DNA of 64,000 nt from Planctomycetia bacterium (lineage in GTDB: Bacteria; Planctomycetota; Planctomycetia; Gemmatales; HRBIN36), in contig JAEUIE010000012.1 of NCBI GenBank assembly GCA_016795155.1, positions 1 through 64,000 of the forward strand, read 5' to 3'. Shown in pieces: positions 20,719 through 59,099 of this stretch. The position numbers and the translations under genes were made by a program. The notes below the pieces were generated by a model. It had not been told where the DNA came from, searched no databases, and saw only the letters and a program-made list of their open reading frames with translations. How positions within the stretch are numbered: position 1 is the first letter of the stretch; each line of letters opens with the position of its first letter.

Positions 20719-21630
20719 ATGATGCATCATAGGCGTAGCTTCCTTTTTTTAGTTGCAGCACTTCCGCTTGCTGCAACTGTTCTGCTGGCTGGTGATAACA
20801 CTGCCCCTGCAAAAACCTTCAAAATCACCATTTCCGATTCAGTCATACGAGGGCAGACCACACCGGCAGCAGCCATGATTCAGGTGCAGCCTTTGTCGGA
20901 ATTGTTTGCCATGGTTGGTGGTGTTCGTCCGCAGTTCAGTTTTGAAAGTCCGGAACAACTCGCACAGAACATTCAGGAAGGCAAAGCTCAATTAGGTGTT
21001 GTAGCGGGCATTGAACTTGGCTGGCTGGGTGACAAGGCCAAGGGTCTTACCCCATTAGCTATTGCATATACCTCCGACATCAAAATGAAGGCATATGTAC
21101 TGATGCGTAAAGATACGCATCATCGTTCCATGCGGGAATTACAAGGCAAGAAACTGGCTTTGCCTCGCCGCACCCAGCATCATGCCCAGGTTTTCCTGCA
21201 CGACAGCATTAACCGGTTAGGCTGTCAACCCAATGGCTTCTTTGCCAATTGCCAAACTCCGCCTGATACGGACGCAGCAATCGAAGCAGTGTTGGATCGC
21301 GATATGGATGCCGTGGTGGTAGATGGAAGTGCCTGGGATGTTTTCCAGGAACGTAAACCAGGGCGAGCCAAGCGACTGATGGTGGTAGCTGAATCCCCCA
21401 ACTTCCCGACTGCAGCATTGATCTACAAGCCAGGTAACATTCCCGAATCTGATCTGAAGAAACTGCGTGATGGGTTGTTCACTGCTCATCAGCAACCATT
21501 CTGCCGACAGATTCTGAACTTCTGGCGTATCAGCCAGTTTATTCCCTCGACTCCTGAGTACGATCAGTTAGTGAAGAACATCGTGAAGGACTTCCCTGAA
21601 CCAATCATCCCTGCGACCTTCACGAAGTAA
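20719..21630 (+). CDS. PhnD-like periplasmic phosphate/phosphonate-type binding protein
   Basis: 303 residues starting at tandem ATGs with a clear signal peptide (RRSFLFLVAALPLAATVLLAG). The body matches the PhnD/phosphonate-binding fold of type II periplasmic binding proteins: SPEQLAQNIQEGKAQLGVVAGIE, a Leu-rich hinge MRELQGKKLALPRR, and DRDMDAVVVDGSAWDVF. No ATPase or permease of a Phn transporter lies nearby, so it may be an orphan sensor or scavenger. It follows the TolC-like gene. A long hairpin after the stop probably ends the transcript. An upstream in-frame start at 20644 is rejected because the signal peptide begins at 20719. Confidence 0.8.
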   Translation: MMHHRRSFLFLVAALPLAATVLLAGDNTAPAKTFKITISDSVIRGQTTPAAAMIQVQPLSELFAMVGGVRPQFSFESPEQLAQNIQEGKAQLGVVAGIELGWLGDKAKGLTPLAIAYTSDIKMKAYVLMRKDTHHRSMRELQGKKLALPRRTQHHAQVFLHDSINRLGCQPNGFFANCQTPPDTDAAIEAVLDRDMDAVVVDGSAWDVFQERKPGRAKRLMVVAESPNFPTAALIYKPGNIPESDLKKLRDGLFTAHQQPFCRQILNFWRISQFIPSTPEYDQLVKNIVKDFPEPIIPATFTK

Positions 21631-21652
21631 CACCGTGGTTTGACATCACAAG

Positions 21653-21685
21653 CAGGGTCGGTCGAATGGATTTCGACCGGCCCTG
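21653..21685 (+). terminator. Hairpin terminator after PhnD-like gene
   Basis: 14-base arms CAGGGTCGGTCGAA and TTCGACCGGCCCTG have one G-T pair and a loop of about 5 bases. They are followed by a weak T-rich stretch (TTGAGTTATTATTG). It sits 22 bases after the stop. The stem is strong but the U-tract is poor. Confidence 0.65.
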
Positions 21686-21792
21686 TTGAGTTATTATTGT
21701 TGCGACTATCTGCAATTGCATTGAAATTCCTTTCCTGCTAAAATAATTACTATTAGCCGCTGCGCTTGTATCAGACGACATGGAGGTCGTGC

Positions 21793-22464
21793 ATGAGACT
21801 GTCAAAGAATTTATCCCTATTTATTTACTGCCTGTTTGTCAGTCAACTCTGTGCTCAGGTCGTGCCCTACACAGCGAAGCCATCCAGTAGTAGTTCGAGT
21901 AGTAGCATGAGCAGTGCGAATCCATCCCAGTCGTTGATCAATTTTTCGATGTTGAGTTGGCGTATCGGTCAATTGTCGCCCGCGAACGCTTCCATAACCA
22001 CATCTAGCACTTCGTCATTGCCACAAGCGCCACTGGCTGTTACCGCCCCTCAAGACCCCTTTGTTGCACCAGCCATCAGCTTGCAGGGTGGGCTTTCCAA
22101 TTCGTCTATCATTACGACAACAGATACTCCGTCGACCATTCAAACTACACCTATGGGTCGTTGGTCCTTCGCTCCCTATTTCCTCCGCTTCAACTCCCTG
22201 GCGCCTGATCATGGGATCAGTACTACGGTGAACACGCCGAATGTACAGGAAAGCAGCAGCGTGGGGTTATTTGATGTCAACAAATACGATACCAGCGTAC
22301 AGCCTTTAGCCATGTCGGTTCCCGAACCGGGCACTCTTGTGTTGTGTGGCAGCATGGCACTAGCTGCAGGTTACTTCTGGTTACGCCGGAAGCCGACCTC
22401 GCCTGCTGGATGTTCAGAGCAGGAGCCAACGAAGGATAATGCGGAGTTGTGTTTGTCGAAGTAG
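21793..22464 (+). CDS. PEP-CTERM sorting domain protein (Ser/Thr-rich)
   Basis: 223 residues. A signal peptide (about 1-21, ending QLCAQ) leads into a low-complexity region with serine runs and many Ser, Thr and Pro. The end is a canonical PEP-CTERM tail: VPEPGTLVLCGSMALAAGYF followed by WLRRK. Such tails are processed by exosortase; no exosortase gene is in the window. GGAGG lies 8 bases before the chosen ATG at 21793. The middle shows no recognised domain. Monocistronic, with a terminator just after the stop. Confidence 0.85.
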   Translation: MRLSKNLSLFIYCLFVSQLCAQVVPYTAKPSSSSSSSSMSSANPSQSLINFSMLSWRIGQLSPANASITTSSTSSLPQAPLAVTAPQDPFVAPAISLQGGLSNSSIITTTDTPSTIQTTPMGRWSFAPYFLRFNSLAPDHGISTTVNTPNVQESSSVGLFDVNKYDTSVQPLAMSVPEPGTLVLCGSMALAAGYFWLRRKPTSPAGCSEQEPTKDNAELCLSK

Positions 22465-22476
22465 TTGTAACACACT

Positions 22477-22499
22477 ACCCCTGGCCGAAAGTCAGGGGT
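22477..22499 (+). terminator. Intrinsic terminator
   Basis: Arms ACCCCTG and CAGGGGT enclose a 9-base loop and are followed by TTTTTCG. It lies 12 bases past the stop of the PEP-CTERM gene. Confidence 0.85.
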
Positions 22500-22575
22500 T
22501 TTTCGTTTTCAGTATTCCAATATGTTGTTCTGCTTCTGACGGTATCACCGAACTCGGTGAACATTGGCCGCTGAC

Positions 22576-22704
22576 TCAGGTTCCTCCGTTGCGAGGCGAT
22601 ATGGTACGCAGACCGCCTACCACCACGATGCTTAGCAGAAAAATCCAGAACACCCACGGAGAGCGGGATTGTTCGGTTGCTTCATTAGGTGCGTTCATAT
22701 GCAT
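22576..22704 (-). CDS. Small single-pass membrane protein (42 residues)
   Basis: A short frame of 42 residues in an otherwise empty 312-base gap between the PEP-CTERM and PIG-L genes. A polar N terminus (NAPNEATEQSRSP) is followed by one strong hydrophobic helix (WVFWIFLLSIVVVGGL) and a basic, Gly-rich end. AGGA lies 6 bases before the first ATG; a second ATG two codons on would give 40 residues. The hydrophobic profile and the ribosome-binding site make it more likely than chance, but it is unrecognised. Confidence 0.45.
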   Translation of the reverse strand: MHMNAPNEATEQSRSPWVFWIFLLSIVVVGGLRTISPRNGGT

Positions 22705-22776
22705 ACTATTCCTGCTGGCATCATCGTGTCGGCAATTCTATCATATCCCAAGCCCACGTGTTGAACGAGAAATCTC

Positions 22777-23532
22777 ATGCGACGAGTCGCCCTCTGCCTG
22801 ATGGCACACCCTGATGATTGTGAATTTCTGGCAGCAGGAACGCTAGCCTTGCTGGCAGAACGGGGCTGGGAAATTCACATTGCCAGCAGCACTCCGGGCG
22901 ATGGGGGCAGCGCGACGCTGAATCCAATTGAGATTACACGCATCCGTAGGGAAGAAAATGTGCGGTCTGCAGCGATGATCGGGGCACAATATCATTGTTT
23001 GGAGTTGCGGGATATTCATGTGACTTTTGATGCAGATTCCATCAGGCGGGCGGTAAGTCTGGTCCGGGCGATTGCACCCACCCTGATGTTCACCCATGCC
23101 CAACAGGATTACATGCTCGACCATGAAGTAACTGCACAGTTGGCCCGGGCAGCTAGTAATGGCTGCATCGTACCTAACTGTGGCAACGGCCCAATACTCT
23201 CAGGCTCGACCATTCCTCATCTTTATTATGCAGACCCGGTGGGCATCGTGGATCACGATGGCAAACTGGCTCAATGCAGTGTAGGCATCAATATCACATC
23301 AGTGTATGCGAAGAAGATGGATATGATCTGTGCTCATGCTTCGCAGCGAGATTGGCTTAAGGCCCATTACGGCGTGGATGAATATACGCGCATGTTAGAT
23401 GAATGGTCAAACCGTCGAGGCAAGGCAATTGGTGTTGAACGTGCTGAAGGTTTTCGCCAGCACAGGGGATATGGTTATCCTACGAATTGTTTGTTGAAGG
23501 AAGTGCTCGGAGAATTTACAAAGAGCGAATAA
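22777..23532 (+). CDS. PIG-L family (LmbE-like) zinc deacetylase
   Basis: 251 residues. The zinc-binding motif AHPDDCEF is at about 10-17, followed by STPGDGGSATLNPIEITRIRREE and the distal ligand region LDHEVTAQLARAA. The family removes N-acetyl groups from N-acetylglucosaminyl compounds. The gene directly precedes a NagB-like isomerase/deaminase homologue on the same strand (23 bases apart). Together they suggest catabolism or remodelling of an amino sugar: deacetylation followed by deamination or isomerisation. That link is inference from adjacency. The natural substrate cannot be read from the sequence. Confidence 0.87.
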   Translation: MRRVALCLMAHPDDCEFLAAGTLALLAERGWEIHIASSTPGDGGSATLNPIEITRIRREENVRSAAMIGAQYHCLELRDIHVTFDADSIRRAVSLVRAIAPTLMFTHAQQDYMLDHEVTAQLARAASNGCIVPNCGNGPILSGSTIPHLYYADPVGIVDHDGKLAQCSVGINITSVYAKKMDMICAHASQRDWLKAHYGVDEYTRMLDEWSNRRGKAIGVERAEGFRQHRGYGYPTNCLLKEVLGEFTKSE

Positions 23533-29208: not shown

Positions 29209-30279
29209 TTAATTCCTGCTCGTTAATTCACTCAGCTTCTGCCTTAAATAAGTCGCCCGCTCAACGTTATGTTCTTCGTTAGTCAGATCTTTACCAGTCA
29301 GCTTGATGAGGTGTGAAGGCTGGGTTTGCAGGAAGAGCATATTTAGATGAGGAATCGTCAAATCCTCAACCATTTCAAGCGTGATGCCCAATCGGACGGT
29401 GGAAAGCAGGTCCATCATTTCATCGGCGGACATCATGGTGGCAGCTTTCAAGGTGCCATAAGCACGGGAAACCTTGTCCTGTACCAGAGGCTGGTACTGC
29501 TGCATCAGTGCTTTGCGTGCTTCTCGTTCGTAGGTGATGATCTGAGGAATCACTTCGCGGATTTCTTTCAGAATGGTGCCTTCATCCTTGCCCAAAGTGA
29601 CCTGGTTGCTGATCTGATAGAAATCGCCTGAGGCGCGAGTGCCTTCGCCATAGAGTCCACGAACTGCGAGGTTAATCTTTTGCAATGCCCGGAAGACTTT
29701 CTCCAGTTGCTTGGTGAACTGCAGAGCAGGCAGGTGCAGCATCACGCTGGCCCGCATGCCCGTGCCGACATTGGTGGGACAGGCAGTCAGATACCCAAAC
29801 TCTTCACTGAATGCATAGGAAATGCGTTCTTCCACTTTGTCGTCGAGTTGATCGATATCCTGCCAAGCTTCATCGAGTTGAAAACCGCTGCGTAATACTT
29901 GCAGACGCAGATGATCTTCTTCATTGACCATGACTGAACGCGTTTCGTGTGCTTCAAAAGCAACTCCACGTGGCCCTTCAGTTCCTGCCAGTTCCCGGCT
30001 CAGGAGCTGTCTTTCGCGAAGAAATTCTCGGTCCACCGGAGAAAGTGTATGTACGGTCAGGTACTTGAACTCAAATCCCCAGTCTTTGGAGGAAAACCGG
30101 TCGCGAATAAGTGATTCAAGTTCGCCACGCTGCATTGCCGAGGCACGGTTGGTGAAAGGAAAGTTGACAATGTTACGGGCCAGACGGATGCGTGATGAAA
30201 CGACGACATCCGATTCGGGACCTGTACCACGCAGCCATTCACCTGAGGTGCGAGCCAGTTCTTCAAAATCAAAAGTCAT
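29209..30279 (-). CDS. mcsB: Protein arginine kinase McsB
   Basis: 356 residues of the ATP:guanido phosphotransferase superfamily, the length of bacterial McsB. ATP-binding arginines lie in SSRIRLARN (28-36), the NEEDH motif of the catalytic site is at 119-123, and the signature CPTNVGTGMR is at 167-176. McsB phosphorylates arginines on proteins, in Bacillus marking them for ClpCP. Residues 337-342, which read RDxxRA in characterised McsB and form the phospho-arginine allosteric pocket, are HNVERA here, so activation may differ. The start overlaps the mcsA stop (ATGA). No clpC or ctsR is in the window. Confidence 0.93.
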   Translation of the reverse strand: MTFDFEELARTSGEWLRGTGPESDVVVSSRIRLARNIVNFPFTNRASAMQRGELESLIRDRFSSKDWGFEFKYLTVHTLSPVDREFLRERQLLSRELAGTEGPRGVAFEAHETRSVMVNEEDHLRLQVLRSGFQLDEAWQDIDQLDDKVEERISYAFSEEFGYLTACPTNVGTGMRASVMLHLPALQFTKQLEKVFRALQKINLAVRGLYGEGTRASGDFYQISNQVTLGKDEGTILKEIREVIPQIITYEREARKALMQQYQPLVQDKVSRAYGTLKAATMMSADEMMDLLSTVRLGITLEMVEDLTIPHLNMLFLQTQPSHLIKLTGKDLTNEEHNVERATYLRQKLSELTSRN

Positions 30280-30773
30280 CCGTGGTGTTCCTTATGTCGA
30301 ATCAGGTCGCGTAGCTCGGCGGCCCGCTCATAGGCTTCCAATTTGACTGCTTCGCTCAATTGCAGGCGAAGTTCCTGCAACTCAACGGGTGATATTTGTG
30401 ATCGTTGCCTGGGGCGCTTTCCAGTGTGCACCGTTTTGCGATGAATCCGTTCAAGTAAAGGCAACAGGCCTGGGCGAAAGGCCTCATAATCATGTGCACA
30501 ACCCAGTCTACCTTGAGAACGGAATTCAGTGTAGTGCATTCCGCAGGAAGGACAGATTAATTGACCAGGTTTATCAATACCTTCTGTGCCATACTTGGTG
30601 ATGATTTTTTGGACAATGGCGGAAATCTGCAGTTCCTTGCCTACCAGCAGGTTTTCCTTTTCCGCACAACTGATGCATAAATGAATTTCAACTGGCTCCT
30701 GACCTGCCACGGGATGACCGAGATGAACCGATGCAGGCTCACCACATTTTTCACAAGGCTTCATGGGTTCCAT
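30276..30773 (-). CDS. mcsA: McsA-type zinc protein, UVR motif (copy adjacent to mcsB)
   Basis: 165 residues. Two treble-clef-like zinc sites: CEKCGEPASVHL with CISCAEKEN, and CPSCGMHYTEFRSQGRLGCAHDYEAF. The C-terminal UvrB/UvrC-like helix pair is LRLQLSEAVKLEAYERAAELRDLIR. McsA is the activator and adaptor of McsB. It overlaps mcsB by 4 bases (ATGA). The ATG at 30773 is taken; an ATG 9 bases downstream (30764) is equally possible. A second McsA-like gene lies 175 bases upstream on the same strand. Confidence 0.88.
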   Translation of the reverse strand: MEPMKPCEKCGEPASVHLGHPVAGQEPVEIHLCISCAEKENLLVGKELQISAIVQKIITKYGTEGIDKPGQLICPSCGMHYTEFRSQGRLGCAHDYEAFRPGLLPLLERIHRKTVHTGKRPRQRSQISPVELQELRLQLSEAVKLEAYERAAELRDLIRHKEHHG

Positions 30774-30948
30774 CCGAATACGATATCGTTTCGAGCATCC
30801 CTGCATAGGTAGCGATCATGAATCAACAACAGGAGTTCTCGTATTTTCCACCCACTTTTCCATAGAGGAAAATGCATGAACTATCATTCTGGTGTTTACT
30901 TACGCTCTTTCAATAGGCTTGTTGGGAAGCCGGTTGCATGCGAGTTCA

Positions 30949-31449
30949 TCATCGAAACTCCTCTGTTTCCAAATTTCTAATCTGGTCGCGGATCTGAGCA
31001 GCCTGCTCATAATCTTCCCTGCCAATGGCACCTTGCAACTGTTTTCGTAGAGCACTGAGTTGTGTGCTAGCTGCGCTCTGGGGGTATTTACGCCGGGGTG
31101 ATTTACCCAAGTGCCTGATTTCTCCATGTATGTTTTCCAGCAGAGGAAGAAGTTCCTTCTTGAAGACTTCGTAATCGTGCGGACAACCAAGCCTGCCCGT
31201 AGAACGAAAATCTTTGAAGGTGATGCCACACTGAGTACATTCGAGCCGGTTGAGTGCTTCGAATTCATCAGTGTCTGCAACTTTTTCCACTGGCTTGGGT
31301 TCAGGCAGCTTTTCACCTGATACCAACGCTGGTTCGTACAGATGCTTCTGTGCACATTCTTCGCAGAAATGCAACTCTTCAATCATTTTCGGACCGACAA
31401 TTTCTGTCAGATGCAGGGTCGCAGGTTTGGGGCACCGTTGGCAGCGCAC
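30949..31449 (-). CDS. Second McsA-like zinc protein, UVR motif
   Basis: 166 residues with the same plan as the neighbouring McsA: CQRCPKPATLHL and CEECAQKHLYEP, then CTQCGITFKDFRSTGRLGCPHDYEVF, and the UVR pair LRKQLQGAIGREDYEQAAQIRDQIR. The start is a GTG at 31449 with GGAGG 9 bases upstream; a TTG 30 bases earlier has no such site. The paralogue carries an insertion (EPALVSGEKLPEPKPVEK, about 47-64) between the zinc sites. Tandem McsA genes before one mcsB suggest two adaptors for one arginine kinase. Confidence 0.85.
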   Translation of the reverse strand: MRCQRCPKPATLHLTEIVGPKMIEELHFCEECAQKHLYEPALVSGEKLPEPKPVEKVADTDEFEALNRLECTQCGITFKDFRSTGRLGCPHDYEVFKKELLPLLENIHGEIRHLGKSPRRKYPQSAASTQLSALRKQLQGAIGREDYEQAAQIRDQIRNLETEEFR

Positions 31450-31621
31450 GCTGAATGATCCTCCATAATGACAAATCAATTCTAACCGGCGGAGGGATTA
31501 GTAGCAATGGCGAGGTTGTGGAGAAAGAACATTCGGTTGGCCGTGCTGGATGATCCCGGAAAATGTATCAATAAAAAGAGCGAACGACTTTTCATCTAAC
31601 TGTTCAGACCATGTGCATTTC

Positions 31622-54381: not shown

Positions 54382-57165
54382 ATGATTGCGCCACGAAAGC
54401 TGACATTTGCGTTTGTTCTTTGTCTTTTCAGTGTCATGTTGATCGGCACACTTCCAGGGCAGACACCTGCGCCAGCCCTCGCTGTGCTGCATACTCTCGA
54501 AGGCCACAAGGAACTGGTCTACACGGTTGCATTCTCCCCCGATGGGAAGCATCTCGTCAGCGGGGCGTTCGACAAGGAACTGAAATTGTGGGATCTGGCG
54601 ACAGGCAAAGTAGTTAAAACCTACGCTGGCCCTAGTGGCCACACTGATCTGGTGTTGACGACAGCCATCAGTCCCGATGGCCGCATCATTGCCAGCGGAG
54701 CGAAGGACAACAGCATCAAACTCTGGGATATGCCCATCAGTGGCGAACTCAAGAATTACCCTGGCTCGACGGCTGGGCTGATATCCCAAGCGATCACACC
54801 CGATGGCAGCAAGCTGGCCACTGGTCAGGTTGATGGCATCATTCGTGTCTGGAACACCAGCGATGGCAAACAAGTGGGGCAACTTGCTGATGCCAAAGCG
54901 CCCGTCATGTCGCTGGCGATCTCCGCTGATGCCAAGTGGCTGGCTGCGGGCACTGAGCAGGGCAAGGTGTTTCTTTACGATCTGACAACGTTAAAACTCA
55001 GCAGCCAATGGCAGAGTCACAGCAAGGAAGTACGCAGCCTGGCATTTCATCCCAATAACCAACTGCTCTTCACCACCGGGCTCGATGGATTGCTGAAAAG
55101 CTGGACAGTACCACCGGCAGTTGCCACTTCCACCAACGGAGTGGATAAGACGACGGTGGCTTGTGCAACACAAGCTCAAGATGGCCGCTGGGCGGTTGGC
55201 TGTGCCGACAAAACCATTCACATCCTGAAAGCCGATGGCACACTTGAGAAAGCACTACCTGCAGCGGAAGCAGACATCAAGTGCGTTGCCTTGCAGGGTA
55301 ACGTGGTGATTGCCGGCCTGGTAAACAACAAGGTAGCCTGGTGGGATATCACCGCTGGCACTTTGACCCATCAGGTTGATTTAGGCAAATCGGCACGCAG
55401 TATCAGTCTGCGGAATGATGCTGCCGAGTTTGCAGCAGCCCTGGAAGATGGCTCGATCAAGATTGGAGAGGTAACCAAGGATAAAGCCAAGGGAGCGGAC
55501 AAAGTTATTACCAAAACTATCCCTGATGCTGGGAAAGCTGTGGCCTATCACCCTTCCAATCCCAATCAGCTTGCCATCGCTGATGACAAGAAGGTCCTCA
55601 AAACCTGGCTCGTTAAGGAAGGCAAAGCCGAACAAACGATTACTCTCGATTCACCCGCAACACATATTGTCTGGAACAAGGATGCCAGCCGAGTCCTTGC
55701 AACAGAAGGTAACCAGGCCATTCTGATCAACCCCAAAGATGGCAAGATCATCAACAAGCTGACACACAGCGGGCCAGTAGTGCACGCCAGTTTCACGACT
55801 GATACGAGCCGGGTCATTACTGTGACACAGGATGGCCACACCCACCTCATGGATGTGGGGAATAGTAAAGAAGTACAGGCTTTCACCGGAAAGGGTGCAG
55901 TGGCAGCGGGTGCACACAGTGATGCGAAGAAGATCATCGTCTGCGGCAAAGACGCCGTGGTAGTTGAGACGATTGCTATGAATCGAGCGATTGCTGCCAG
56001 CGCTACTCCGGTGCGGGGCATCTCGATGATGGATGGAGGTAACCGGGCTGTGGCCGCCGCTGAGGATGGCATCGCGAAAATTTTCAACCTGACCAACGGT
56101 AACATGGACAAGGAACTGAAAGGCCACCAGGGCGTCATCGAAGTGGTGGCTGCCACACCGAACAGTCAGTTGATATTCACCAGTGGCGCGGATCAGTCAC
56201 TGCGTTGTTTCCAGGCAAGTGATGGCAAGGAGCTCAAGTCCATCAAGCAGAATAGCCGGGTGTTGTCGCTGGCAGTGCAGGGTAACCTGCTCGTTGTCAG
56301 CATGGCTGATGGCACACTGCAGTTTCTTGATGTGACGTTTACACCAGGTCAGCCAGCACCGGCAACATTCTGCAAAGTGCTGCACAGCTTCAAGCAACCC
56401 AACATGATCACGAGTGTCGTCATGCCTGCTGCGGGAGTGATCGCCTACACCGCCAGTCCCGATAAATCTGTACGGTCTTGGAAAATCGCAGGCGACTTGC
56501 CTACCCGCAACCTGGCGGGGCATGGCAACCTGGTAGATGCTGTGGTTTTCAGTCCTGATGGATTATCGCTTGCTTCATGCAGCCATGATGGCACTACCCG
56601 GTTCTGGAATCTGGGTGATGGTAAACAGACAGGTGAGGTGAAACTGAGTCCACAACCTTTGTACTGCCTGGCCTGGCGTGGCGACGGCAAGCAGCTTGCT
56701 ATGGGCAGCTTTGATCGTTCGATTCGTCTGATTGATGTCGCAGGCAAAAAAGTGGAACGGGAGATCAAAGGTTTTGATGAAAAGTCGTCTCCCAACGGCC
56801 ACAGCGATGCGGTCTATACGGTAGCTTATGCCGGCAACGATCAACTCTACTCGGCTGGGGCCGATGGAAAGATCAAGCTGTGGAATCTGAAGGATGGTAT
56901 GCAGGTGAAAACCTTCATCGACCCGGTACTGAAGGACAAAGCCCAGTGCGATTTTATCAACAACATCCGTTTGACGAAAGAAAATCAGAGACTGGTCGCG
57001 GTAGGCAACGGCGGTTGGATTACCATCTGGAACTCTGCTGATGGCAAGATGCTTCACAGCCAGCGTATGCCGGTTGGATTGTACGGTTTGGCGATCTCGC
57101 CCGATGATAAACTCATTGCGACAGGCAATATGAATGGAACGGTATCGGTGTTGAAGATGCCGTGA
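54382..57165 (+). CDS. Secreted WD40-repeat protein
   Basis: 927 residues. A signal peptide (about 1-29, ending LPGQTPAPA) is followed by many WD40 repeats, starting LEGHKELVYTVAFSPDGKHLVSGAFDKELKLWD. The repeats are clearest at the start and at about 710-830 (LAGHGNLVDAVVFSPDGLSLASCSHDGTTRFWN), with diverged repeats between. Two or more seven-blade propellers are likely. Secreted WD40 proteins are typical of planctomycetes, where they scaffold complexes. Partner unknown. Confidence 0.9.
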   Translation: MIAPRKLTFAFVLCLFSVMLIGTLPGQTPAPALAVLHTLEGHKELVYTVAFSPDGKHLVSGAFDKELKLWDLATGKVVKTYAGPSGHTDLVLTTAISPDGRIIASGAKDNSIKLWDMPISGELKNYPGSTAGLISQAITPDGSKLATGQVDGIIRVWNTSDGKQVGQLADAKAPVMSLAISADAKWLAAGTEQGKVFLYDLTTLKLSSQWQSHSKEVRSLAFHPNNQLLFTTGLDGLLKSWTVPPAVATSTNGVDKTTVACATQAQDGRWAVGCADKTIHILKADGTLEKALPAAEADIKCVALQGNVVIAGLVNNKVAWWDITAGTLTHQVDLGKSARSISLRNDAAEFAAALEDGSIKIGEVTKDKAKGADKVITKTIPDAGKAVAYHPSNPNQLAIADDKKVLKTWLVKEGKAEQTITLDSPATHIVWNKDASRVLATEGNQAILINPKDGKIINKLTHSGPVVHASFTTDTSRVITVTQDGHTHLMDVGNSKEVQAFTGKGAVAAGAHSDAKKIIVCGKDAVVVETIAMNRAIAASATPVRGISMMDGGNRAVAAAEDGIAKIFNLTNGNMDKELKGHQGVIEVVAATPNSQLIFTSGADQSLRCFQASDGKELKSIKQNSRVLSLAVQGNLLVVSMADGTLQFLDVTFTPGQPAPATFCKVLHSFKQPNMITSVVMPAAGVIAYTASPDKSVRSWKIAGDLPTRNLAGHGNLVDAVVFSPDGLSLASCSHDGTTRFWNLGDGKQTGEVKLSPQPLYCLAWRGDGKQLAMGSFDRSIRLIDVAGKKVEREIKGFDEKSSPNGHSDAVYTVAYAGNDQLYSAGADGKIKLWNLKDGMQVKTFIDPVLKDKAQCDFINNIRLTKENQRLVAVGNGGWITIWNSADGKMLHSQRMPVGLYGLAISPDDKLIATGNMNGTVSVLKMP

Positions 57166-57167
57166 TT

Positions 57168-57457
57168 TCAATTCCTGGATTGCCAGCGATCCGGATTTCG
57201 TGAGGCATGGAACACAGCTAACACGCGAATATGATCGATTTTATTGCGGTAAAACACTACATAAGGAAATCGCTTGAGCAGTCCTGCGTGTATGTCATGG
57301 AACTCTTTTGCATATCGATCTGGATTGGAGGCAATCTCTGTAAAAACATCTTCCAGTTCATTGAGGAACTCGCCACCCAGACCAGGAGACTTTTTTCATA
57401 CCAGTCGTGTGCTTGCTTGATTTCTTTTTTTACAGAACGGTGAAATGTCAATTTCAC
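57168..57457 (-). pseudogene. ParE/RelE-family toxin, frameshifted at an A6 run
   Basis: The first part, from GTG 57457, reads MKLTFHRSVKKEIKQAHDWYEK and then loses similarity. Moving one base back at the A6 run (57391-57396) restores the family sequence, K-S-P-G-L-G-G-E-F-L-N-E-L-E-D and on to AVFHASRNPDRW, ending with TGA at 57168-57170. The joined product would be about 96 residues, a normal ParE/RelE toxin. Causes: a lost A (pseudogene or sequencing error) or -1 slippage on AAAAAAG. The GTG overlaps the antitoxin stop (GTGA). Confidence 0.78.
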
Positions 57458-57678
57458 AGTGGTTTCTCAACAAAGTCGCGAATTTCCTGCCAGGAACAAG
57501 AACTGGATACATCATTCTCCATTTCAGCGTCTCGTTGAATCAGTTCCGCCTGTTGTTCAGCCGACAGCATAGGTTTCCAGGTTGCATCACCCAGACTTTC
57601 CCATATTTCAAGAGCCAGGTGTATACGCTGTTCCGTAGTTAATTTGTCTAATCCAAGTTCTTTCATGTTTTGAATCAT
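57454..57678 (-). CDS. Addiction-module antitoxin (ParD-like, Unstab_antitox family)
   Basis: 74 residues, with AGAGG upstream of the ATG at 57678. The sequence TTEQRIHLALEIWESLG, followed by a Leu/Gln-rich helix and the terminal SWQEIRDFVEKPL, matches the addiction-module antitoxins (PF09720 type) that pair with RelE/ParE toxins. Antitoxin precedes toxin and the stop overlaps the toxin start, as in working modules. Confidence 0.82.
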   Translation of the reverse strand: MIQNMKELGLDKLTTEQRIHLALEIWESLGDATWKPMLSAEQQAELIQRDAEMENDVSSSCSWQEIRDFVEKPL

Positions 57679-57773: not shown

Positions 57774-59099
57774 CTACAGAATAAACTTGCTCACATCTTC
57801 CTTCTTGAATAGATGCCCCAGCTGTTTCACAACATAGGCCTTGTCAATCGAGAATTTCTTCGGCTTCCAGTCGGGACCAGCAAAGCTGATGTCTTCAACC
57901 AGCCTTTCGATGATGGTATGCAGTCGGCGGGCTCCGATGTTCTGGGTTGCACGATTGGCTTCATAGGCGAGTTCCGCCATCTCAGACAATGCATCGTCAG
58001 TAAAGCTGAGCTTAATGCCTTCAGTCGCCAGCAGTTCACTGTACTGTTTGGTCAGGGCATGCTGCGGTTCGGTAAGGATGCGGAGGAAGTCTGCCTTGTC
58101 CAGATCTTCCAGTTCTACTCGAATCGGGAACCGGCCCTGTAGTTCAGGCATCAGGTCGGACGGTTTGGATACATGAAATGCACCTGCCGCAATGAAGAGA
58201 ATATGATCGGTGCTCACCGGGCCATAACGCGTACTGACCGTGGTACCTTCTACAATAGGCAGCAGATCACGCTGTACTCCCTGGCGGGATACATCGGGCC
58301 CACTGGAAGACTGCGGCCCGCACACCTTGTCAATCTCATCGATAAAGAGAATCCCCTGGTTCTCTGCCAGCTTGATAGCCTTTTCAATCACCACCTGCTT
58401 GTCGATCAAGGCTTCCGATTCCTGTTCCAACAGCGCCTTGCGGGCTTCCTTCACTGGCAGCTTGCGCGTGGTGGAATTCTTAGGCATCATCTTTTCGATG
58501 ACGGTCTGCAAATCCGATTCCATCTGCCCCAGCCCGAGCATGGTGACTTGCGGCTGTTTCTGTTCGACTTGTATTTCGACTTCACTTTCTTCGAGATCAC
58601 CAGCCAGCAAGCGGGTATTGATTTTTTCACGGGTGCGGGCGTTGCGTTCAGCTTGTTCCGGCGTAATGTCAGAATCCCAGCCTGTTGATGGTACAAGCAG
58701 ATCGAGCAACTTTTCATTGACTCGAGCAAGAGCCTGGAATTCTACCAGCTTGCGTTGCTCGGTGCGAACCATACCGATAGCTACCTCGGTGAGATCACGC
58801 ACCATGCTGTCGACATCGCGGCCATGGTAGCCCACTTCGGTGTATTTGCTCGCTTCCACTTTGATGAAGGGAGCACCTGTGAGTTGAGCCAGGCGGCGGG
58901 CGATTTCGGTTTTACCCACGCCGGTCGGCCCGATCATCAGGATGTTTTTGGGAGTGACATCGTTCTGCAATTCTTCGGGCAGTTGCTGCCGGCGCCAGCG
59001 ATTACGTAGAGCGATGGCAACTGCCTTCTTGGCAGCTGCCTGGCCAACAATGTGTTTATCAAGAGCAGCGACGATTTCTTTGGGTGTCAGAGGCTTCAT
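57774..59099 (-). CDS. hslU: ATP-dependent protease ATPase subunit HslU
   Basis: 441 residues, the usual length. AAA+ unfoldase partner of HslV. N terminus KPLTPKEIVAALDKHIVGQ, Walker A GPTGVGKT (57-64), Walker B and sensor region GILFIDEIDKVCG, arginine finger region in GARRLHTIIERL. The C terminus ends EDVSKFIL, the HslV-activating tail. Pore-loop motif GYVG of E. coli reads GYHG at 90-93, with a His instead of Val; this may alter substrate gripping. The insertion domain (about 105-240) is present. hslV lies upstream in the same direction. Confidence 0.95.
   Translation of the reverse strand: MKPLTPKEIVAALDKHIVGQAAAKKAVAIALRNRWRRQQLPEELQNDVTPKNILMIGPTGVGKTEIARRLAQLTGAPFIKVEASKYTEVGYHGRDVDSMVRDLTEVAIGMVRTEQRKLVEFQALARVNEKLLDLLVPSTGWDSDITPEQAERNARTREKINTRLLAGDLEESEVEIQVEQKQPQVTMLGLGQMESDLQTVIEKMMPKNSTTRKLPVKEARKALLEQESEALIDKQVVIEKAIKLAENQGILFIDEIDKVCGPQSSSGPDVSRQGVQRDLLPIVEGTTVSTRYGPVSTDHILFIAAGAFHVSKPSDLMPELQGRFPIRVELEDLDKADFLRILTEPQHALTKQYSELLATEGIKLSFTDDALSEMAELAYEANRATQNIGARRLHTIIERLVEDISFAGPDWKPKKFSIDKAYVVKQLGHLFKKEDVSKFIL

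Follow-up and report, generated by a model that had tools for sequence, protein, structure and literature searches.

A toxin-antitoxin unit beside hslU

Within the window, by which we mean the whole 64,000-nucleotide stretch of DNA that was analysed, a two-gene unit lies between hslU and a long plus-strand gene that ends at 57165 and appears WD40-like by eye. The unit is read antitoxin first and toxin second, and the stop codon of the antitoxin (TGA, 57454-57456) overlaps the start codon of the toxin (GTG, 57455-57457) in the tetranucleotide GTGA (Table 1). The antitoxin is open throughout and matches PF09720 (Unstab_antitox; E 3.7e-8, 33.7 bits) and TIGR02574 (33.0 bits, cut-off 31.9). The unit thus resembles the type II modules that combine a PF09720/TIGR02574 antitoxin with a PF05016 toxin in its gene order, its overlapping start and its matches to both families, and it differs from them in that its toxin does not occupy a single open frame: it is one base out of frame, with two frames joined at 57391-57396.

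Table 1 Features of the toxin-antitoxin locus and its upstream neighbour in the window.
Feature	Position	Strand	Description
hslU, upstream neighbour	57774..59099	minus	TIGR00390, 609.9 bits
Antitoxin	57454..57678	minus	ATG 57678 to TGA 57454, 74 aa, intact; PF09720 and TIGR02574 matches
ParE-type toxin, frame from GTG start	57257..57457	minus	66 aa; family sequence in the first 22 codons only
A7 run, closer to the toxin start than A6	57425..57431	minus	In frame with the family sequence
A6 run where the two toxin frames join	57391..57396	minus	Codon phase AA|AAA|AGT
Remaining ParE-type toxin, −1 frame	57168..57395	minus	75 codons and stop; PF05016 match
Predicted RNA hairpin	57316..57384	minus	Begins 7 nt past A_AAA; not beyond background

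The toxin is divided between two reading frames

The frame that begins at the GTG reads VKLTFHRSVKKEIKQAHDWYEK, after which it departs from the family sequence and stops with 66 residues. At this point the plus strand carries T6 (A6 on the minus strand, 57391-57396), and a G follows the A run at 57390. In the −1 frame, 75 codons run uninterrupted from 57395 to a stop at 57168-57170 and match PF05016 (ParE_toxin) over profile positions 27-89 of 89 with a score that is above chance (E 3.1e-7, 31.3 bits, cut-off 23). When the toxin is aligned to a family HMM made from twelve homologues of relatives in the order, its first piece falls at positions 4-24 (10.1 bits) and its second begins at about 24-25 and continues through the last position (92.0 bits), from which it follows that one base is missing at the joint and that the coding frame is broken relative to intact homologues. 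As far as one sequence can decide, the missing base may be any of those between GAA and TCT, and a loss within the A run would be plausible. The sole PDB match of an intact homologue (L021) is Toxin ParE2 (8c26, E 0.0067).

The preliminary description of this DNA, made from the letters alone, had placed a toxin with one base too few at the A6 run, next to an intact antitoxin and GTGA overlap and ahead of intact downstream toxin sequence, and all of this is borne out by the frames and family matches given above. It had further stated that a −1 step would produce exactly the family sequence, K-K-S-P-G-L-G. What holds is the spacing: five residues separate W-Y from G-L-G in 66 of the 98 open homologues among the matches listed, as classed by a simple pattern that leaves the other 32 unclassed. 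The residues themselves vary, and EKKSP occurs in none of the 66.

Three other accounts of the coding potential were rejected. An internal restart of the C-terminal part would need a start codon, and none of ATG, GTG and TTG occurs close to the 5′ end of the −1 frame; the ORFs of a putative plus-strand gene across the toxin are negative for codon usage; and the score of DUF3884 (PF13024) in the 66-residue frame (16 bits, cut-off 21.7) was taken as chance.

The A6 run as a potential slippage site

Programmed −1 frameshifting is known from dnaX. With dnaX, and with the IS3-type transposases treated in PMC4066793, the locus shares an A-rich run that joins the 0 and −1 frames; it differs from them in that its heptamer is in the wrong phase, that it has no Shine-Dalgarno (SD)-like stimulator and that the site is not conserved. 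The codons at the joint are GAA|AAA|AGT, which places the AAAAAAG heptamer in codon phase 1 (AA|AAA|AGT), whereas the E. coli signal A_AAA_AAG needs the codons A|AAA|AAG, that is, phase 2, for tandem −1 slippage according to the motif rules in the available part of PMC4066793. In the zero frame, AAAAAAG is therefore one position off an X_XXZ_ZZN heptamer, and only a Z_ZZN tetramer, A_AAA with its AAA codon, remains. In the same part of that source, which reports a systematic study in E. coli, tetramers without a stimulator gave 0.147% frameshifting against a background of 0.112%, barely above it, and A_AA.A was the weakest of six standout tetramers when a strong pseudoknot was present.

None of the SD-like stimulators used in the available part of PMC4066793 is found in the 30 nt upstream of the motif. 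A predicted 69-nt hairpin begins 7 nt after the tetramer, which fits the 4-10 nt range of hairpin distances in that part of the study; its z-score is −1.62, and values as low as −1.6 are also seen in 14 of 156 random stretches taken from 13 window genes and in 5 of the 98 homologues at the corresponding site. The 47 other window genes contain AAAAAAG four times on their sense strand, and these occurrences cover all three phases. A −1 step at the A7 run nearer the toxin start was also considered and rejected, as the −1 frame meets a TGA just ahead of the joint.

The run is not conserved either. An A6 run is present in none of the 98 open full-length homologues of the order among the matches listed, where A runs at the joint reach five at most, at one locus, and the frame break of the window is common to none of the 112 other homologues among these matches. 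Under the criteria set out for the GeneTack survey (PMC3711429, in part), programmed frameshifts are expected to be found repeatedly and at conserved sites; the frame break of the window is a singleton. In the literature consulted on slippage-gated toxins, toxin decay, frameshift motifs, planctomycetes and ccdO157, we found no ParE toxin gated by frameshifting; PMC8749433 proposes, without experimental proof, that the frame shifts by −1 where the mazEF genes overlap. The suggestion of a frameshift-gated toxin is thus not supported: the heptamer is out of phase, there is no SD-like stimulator upstream, the hairpin does not exceed background and the site is unconserved in 98 homologues. Of the earlier pair of options, indel or −1 slippage, it is the indel that is supported.

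Toxins of this family are broken repeatedly in the order

We scanned 113 loci: besides that of the window, these are 112 homologues from the order to which it belongs, two of them from the same genome. The 112 comprise the listed matches in rank order together with L002, L003 and L008, and further matches exist beyond those listed; matches touching or near contig ends (G046:C36, G038:C99, G095:C164, G026:C890) were passed over, as were nearly all of those ranked below G061:C505. As the query was the C-terminal part of the toxin, the survey covers toxins that retain this part and misses those that have lost it.

Among the 112 homologues from the matches listed, 98 are open and full-length, 13 are broken and one is unclear (L131). 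Ten are interrupted by an in-frame stop codon (L002, L024, L064, L080, L096, L102, L104, L114, L118 and L136) and three by a frameshift (L027, L033 and L078). A frameshift site shared by the family was rejected, as these three are interrupted elsewhere and carry an additional base, a shift in the opposite direction, where the window has one fewer. One of the nonsense cases (L002:455-745, contig C67) belongs to the same genome as the window: it is a ParE-type toxin with a TAA at codon 10, and the antitoxin beside it is open. In four of the ten nonsense cases (L024, L102, L114, L136), the stop takes the place of the W or the Y in W-Y-E, near the position of the break in the window; the codons of both residues are one change away from a stop. 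Eleven loci from other phyla (L009-L019) were kept outside the count of 112, and ten of them (L009-L017 and L019; L018 was left out) are in frame across the joint as read by eye.

A family antitoxin adjoins 12 of the 13 broken toxins among the matches listed. Among the 107 other paired loci, in turn, the antitoxin is damaged in one or two cases, fully in L102 and partly in L104, and in each of these the toxin alongside is broken as well. When breaks are apportioned by gene length, the chance of at most 2 of 15 falling on the antitoxin is p = 0.017, and that of 1 of 14 is p = 0.005; toxins are therefore lost preferentially, which is what decay predicts and unlike random error. The preliminary description had named premature stops in other strains as evidence against slippage and for simple decay. 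The survey provides broken genes in 13 of the 112 homologues among the matches listed, and these come from other species and one paralogue, not from strains of this species. It also gauges toxin-first decay in the order, in which 13 of 112 sampled ParE-type toxins of the family are broken while the adjacent antitoxin is mostly open.

History of the module in the family

A toxin search in six other genomes of the family gave no match in five of them and one match of 32% identity in the sixth. Neither a toxin nor an antitoxin lies beside hslU in seven loci (L050-L056) of six family relatives, each reaching up to 1.5 kb to either side of hslU, which in one genome is split over two contigs. The pair beside hslU therefore looks recently gained in this lineage, as judged from these comparisons. 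The closest toxin homologues among the matches listed, of 54-55% identity, are in the other family of the order. Between the C-terminal part and the two nearest homologues of these matches, pN is 0.31-0.33 and pS is 0.77-0.94, as estimated from 74-75 codons with pS near saturation. As pN is lower than pS, either the loss of the toxin was recent or the gene still matters, and a toxin with a single lesion cannot be called long dead. The distribution of toxin matches in relatives, the hslU loci, the identities and the pN and pS values all fit a module that was gained and then broken.

Decay of the toxin and alternative explanations

Taking these findings together, the frame break is most likely due to ordinary toxin-first decay of a type II pair, and not to a toxin switched by slippage; we assign a probability of roughly 0.8 to a decayed type II toxin-antitoxin module in which the toxin was lost by a one-base indel and the antitoxin was retained. 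In this model, a PF09720/TIGR02574 antitoxin and a PF05016 ParE-type toxin would have been gained beside hslU in this lineage, and the loss of a single base at or adjoining the A6 run, presumably in the cell rather than in the assembly, would then have thrown the toxin out of frame while the antitoxin was retained. The ribosome would yield a 66-residue product in which the last 44 residues bear no relation to the family; it is not expected to work as a toxin and, judged by its sequence, is probably inactive. Inertia may explain why the antitoxin persists; alternatively, the protein may repress its own operon or act as a shield against a related incoming module. What the sequences show are the frames, the family matches, the lack of the module next to hslU in relatives, and homologues that are often broken where the neighbouring antitoxin is open. 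Against decay, some of the 13 broken homologues come from assemblies that are fragmented, so that these breaks may likewise be errors.

Such decay has precedents. Decay of chromosomal toxin-antitoxin systems has been described in E. coli, where toxins are inactive and nonsense mutations occur (PMC7167474 and PMC2654758, both in part), and orphan antitoxins are abundant in that species (PMC10790755, in part). The decaying ccdO157 of E. coli, as described in the available parts of the first two sources, resembles the present locus in that the module looks recently gained, its toxin is inactivated and its antitoxin is kept; it differs in toxin family and organism, and the locus of the window is known from one genome instead of a strain series. 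As it stands, the locus is one more decaying toxin-antitoxin pair.

The missing base might instead be an error of the assembly or consensus, in which case the toxin gene of the cell would be in frame and the pair would be an ordinary working ParE-type module. The sole lesion is indeed a single base in or next to a homopolymer, a classic site of error, both toxin pieces look conserved, and the assembly (G000) consists of 68 contigs. We regard this explanation as unlikely, and keep it at that level because a singleton frameshift confirmed by BLASTP is expected to reflect a sequencing error more often than an indel (PMC3711429, in part). The indirect evidence favours a real loss of the base: across 47 open genes of the window, 55,500 bases in all, the reading frame stays unbroken at each of the 22 homopolymers that are six or seven bases long, inspection of the gaps in the window revealed no second split gene, the other broken copy in the same genome (L002) has a stop codon, which a homopolymer error does not make, and breaks in the order hit toxins more than antitoxins, which random assembly error would not spare. 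The same frequency of long runs in intact genes argues against phase variation, in which slipped-strand changes of A6 would turn the toxin on and off between cells. This explanation has in its favour a homopolymer exactly at the joint and the second run, A7, upstream of it. Six bases are short for a contingency tract, and an A run longer than five is found at the joint in none of the 98 open homologues among the matches listed, so that we give phase variation almost no weight.

A further alternative is programmed or tolerated −1 slippage, in which a small fraction of ribosomes or transcripts would shift at A6 and full-length toxin would be held very low. Shifting by −1 at A_AAA brings back the spacing of the family, the hairpin lies at a distance within the range in the available part of PMC4066793, the C-terminal part still looks constrained, and 'savior' indels offset by low-level frameshifting have been described (PMC5009743, in part). 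These points are outweighed by the phase of the heptamer and the weakness of A_AAA alone in the same part of PMC4066793, by the absence of an SD-like sequence in the 30 nt ahead of the motif, by a hairpin matched among random stretches and homologue sites, and by a slippage site that is seen in no homologue listed, where the three other frameshifts lie elsewhere and run in the opposite direction; slippage is accordingly very improbable. Its more elaborate version, a toxin throttled to a trace by a frame break that is rarely overcome at A_AAA with the help of the hairpin, so that the pair would be addictive and nearly harmless, we likewise consider highly doubtful. Were it true, it would represent a new way of keeping a toxin at trace level.

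Other features of the window

Two further regions were noted away from the toxin-antitoxin unit. The interval 21630-22777 is a 1.1 kb intergenic region in which no ORF has coding character; it may be what is left of a pseudogene, or a regulatory region. At 30276-30815 and 30949-31497 on the minus strand, two tandem genes of about 180 codons each have similar translations with CxxC motifs followed by a C-terminal stretch, and by eye they are McsA-like.
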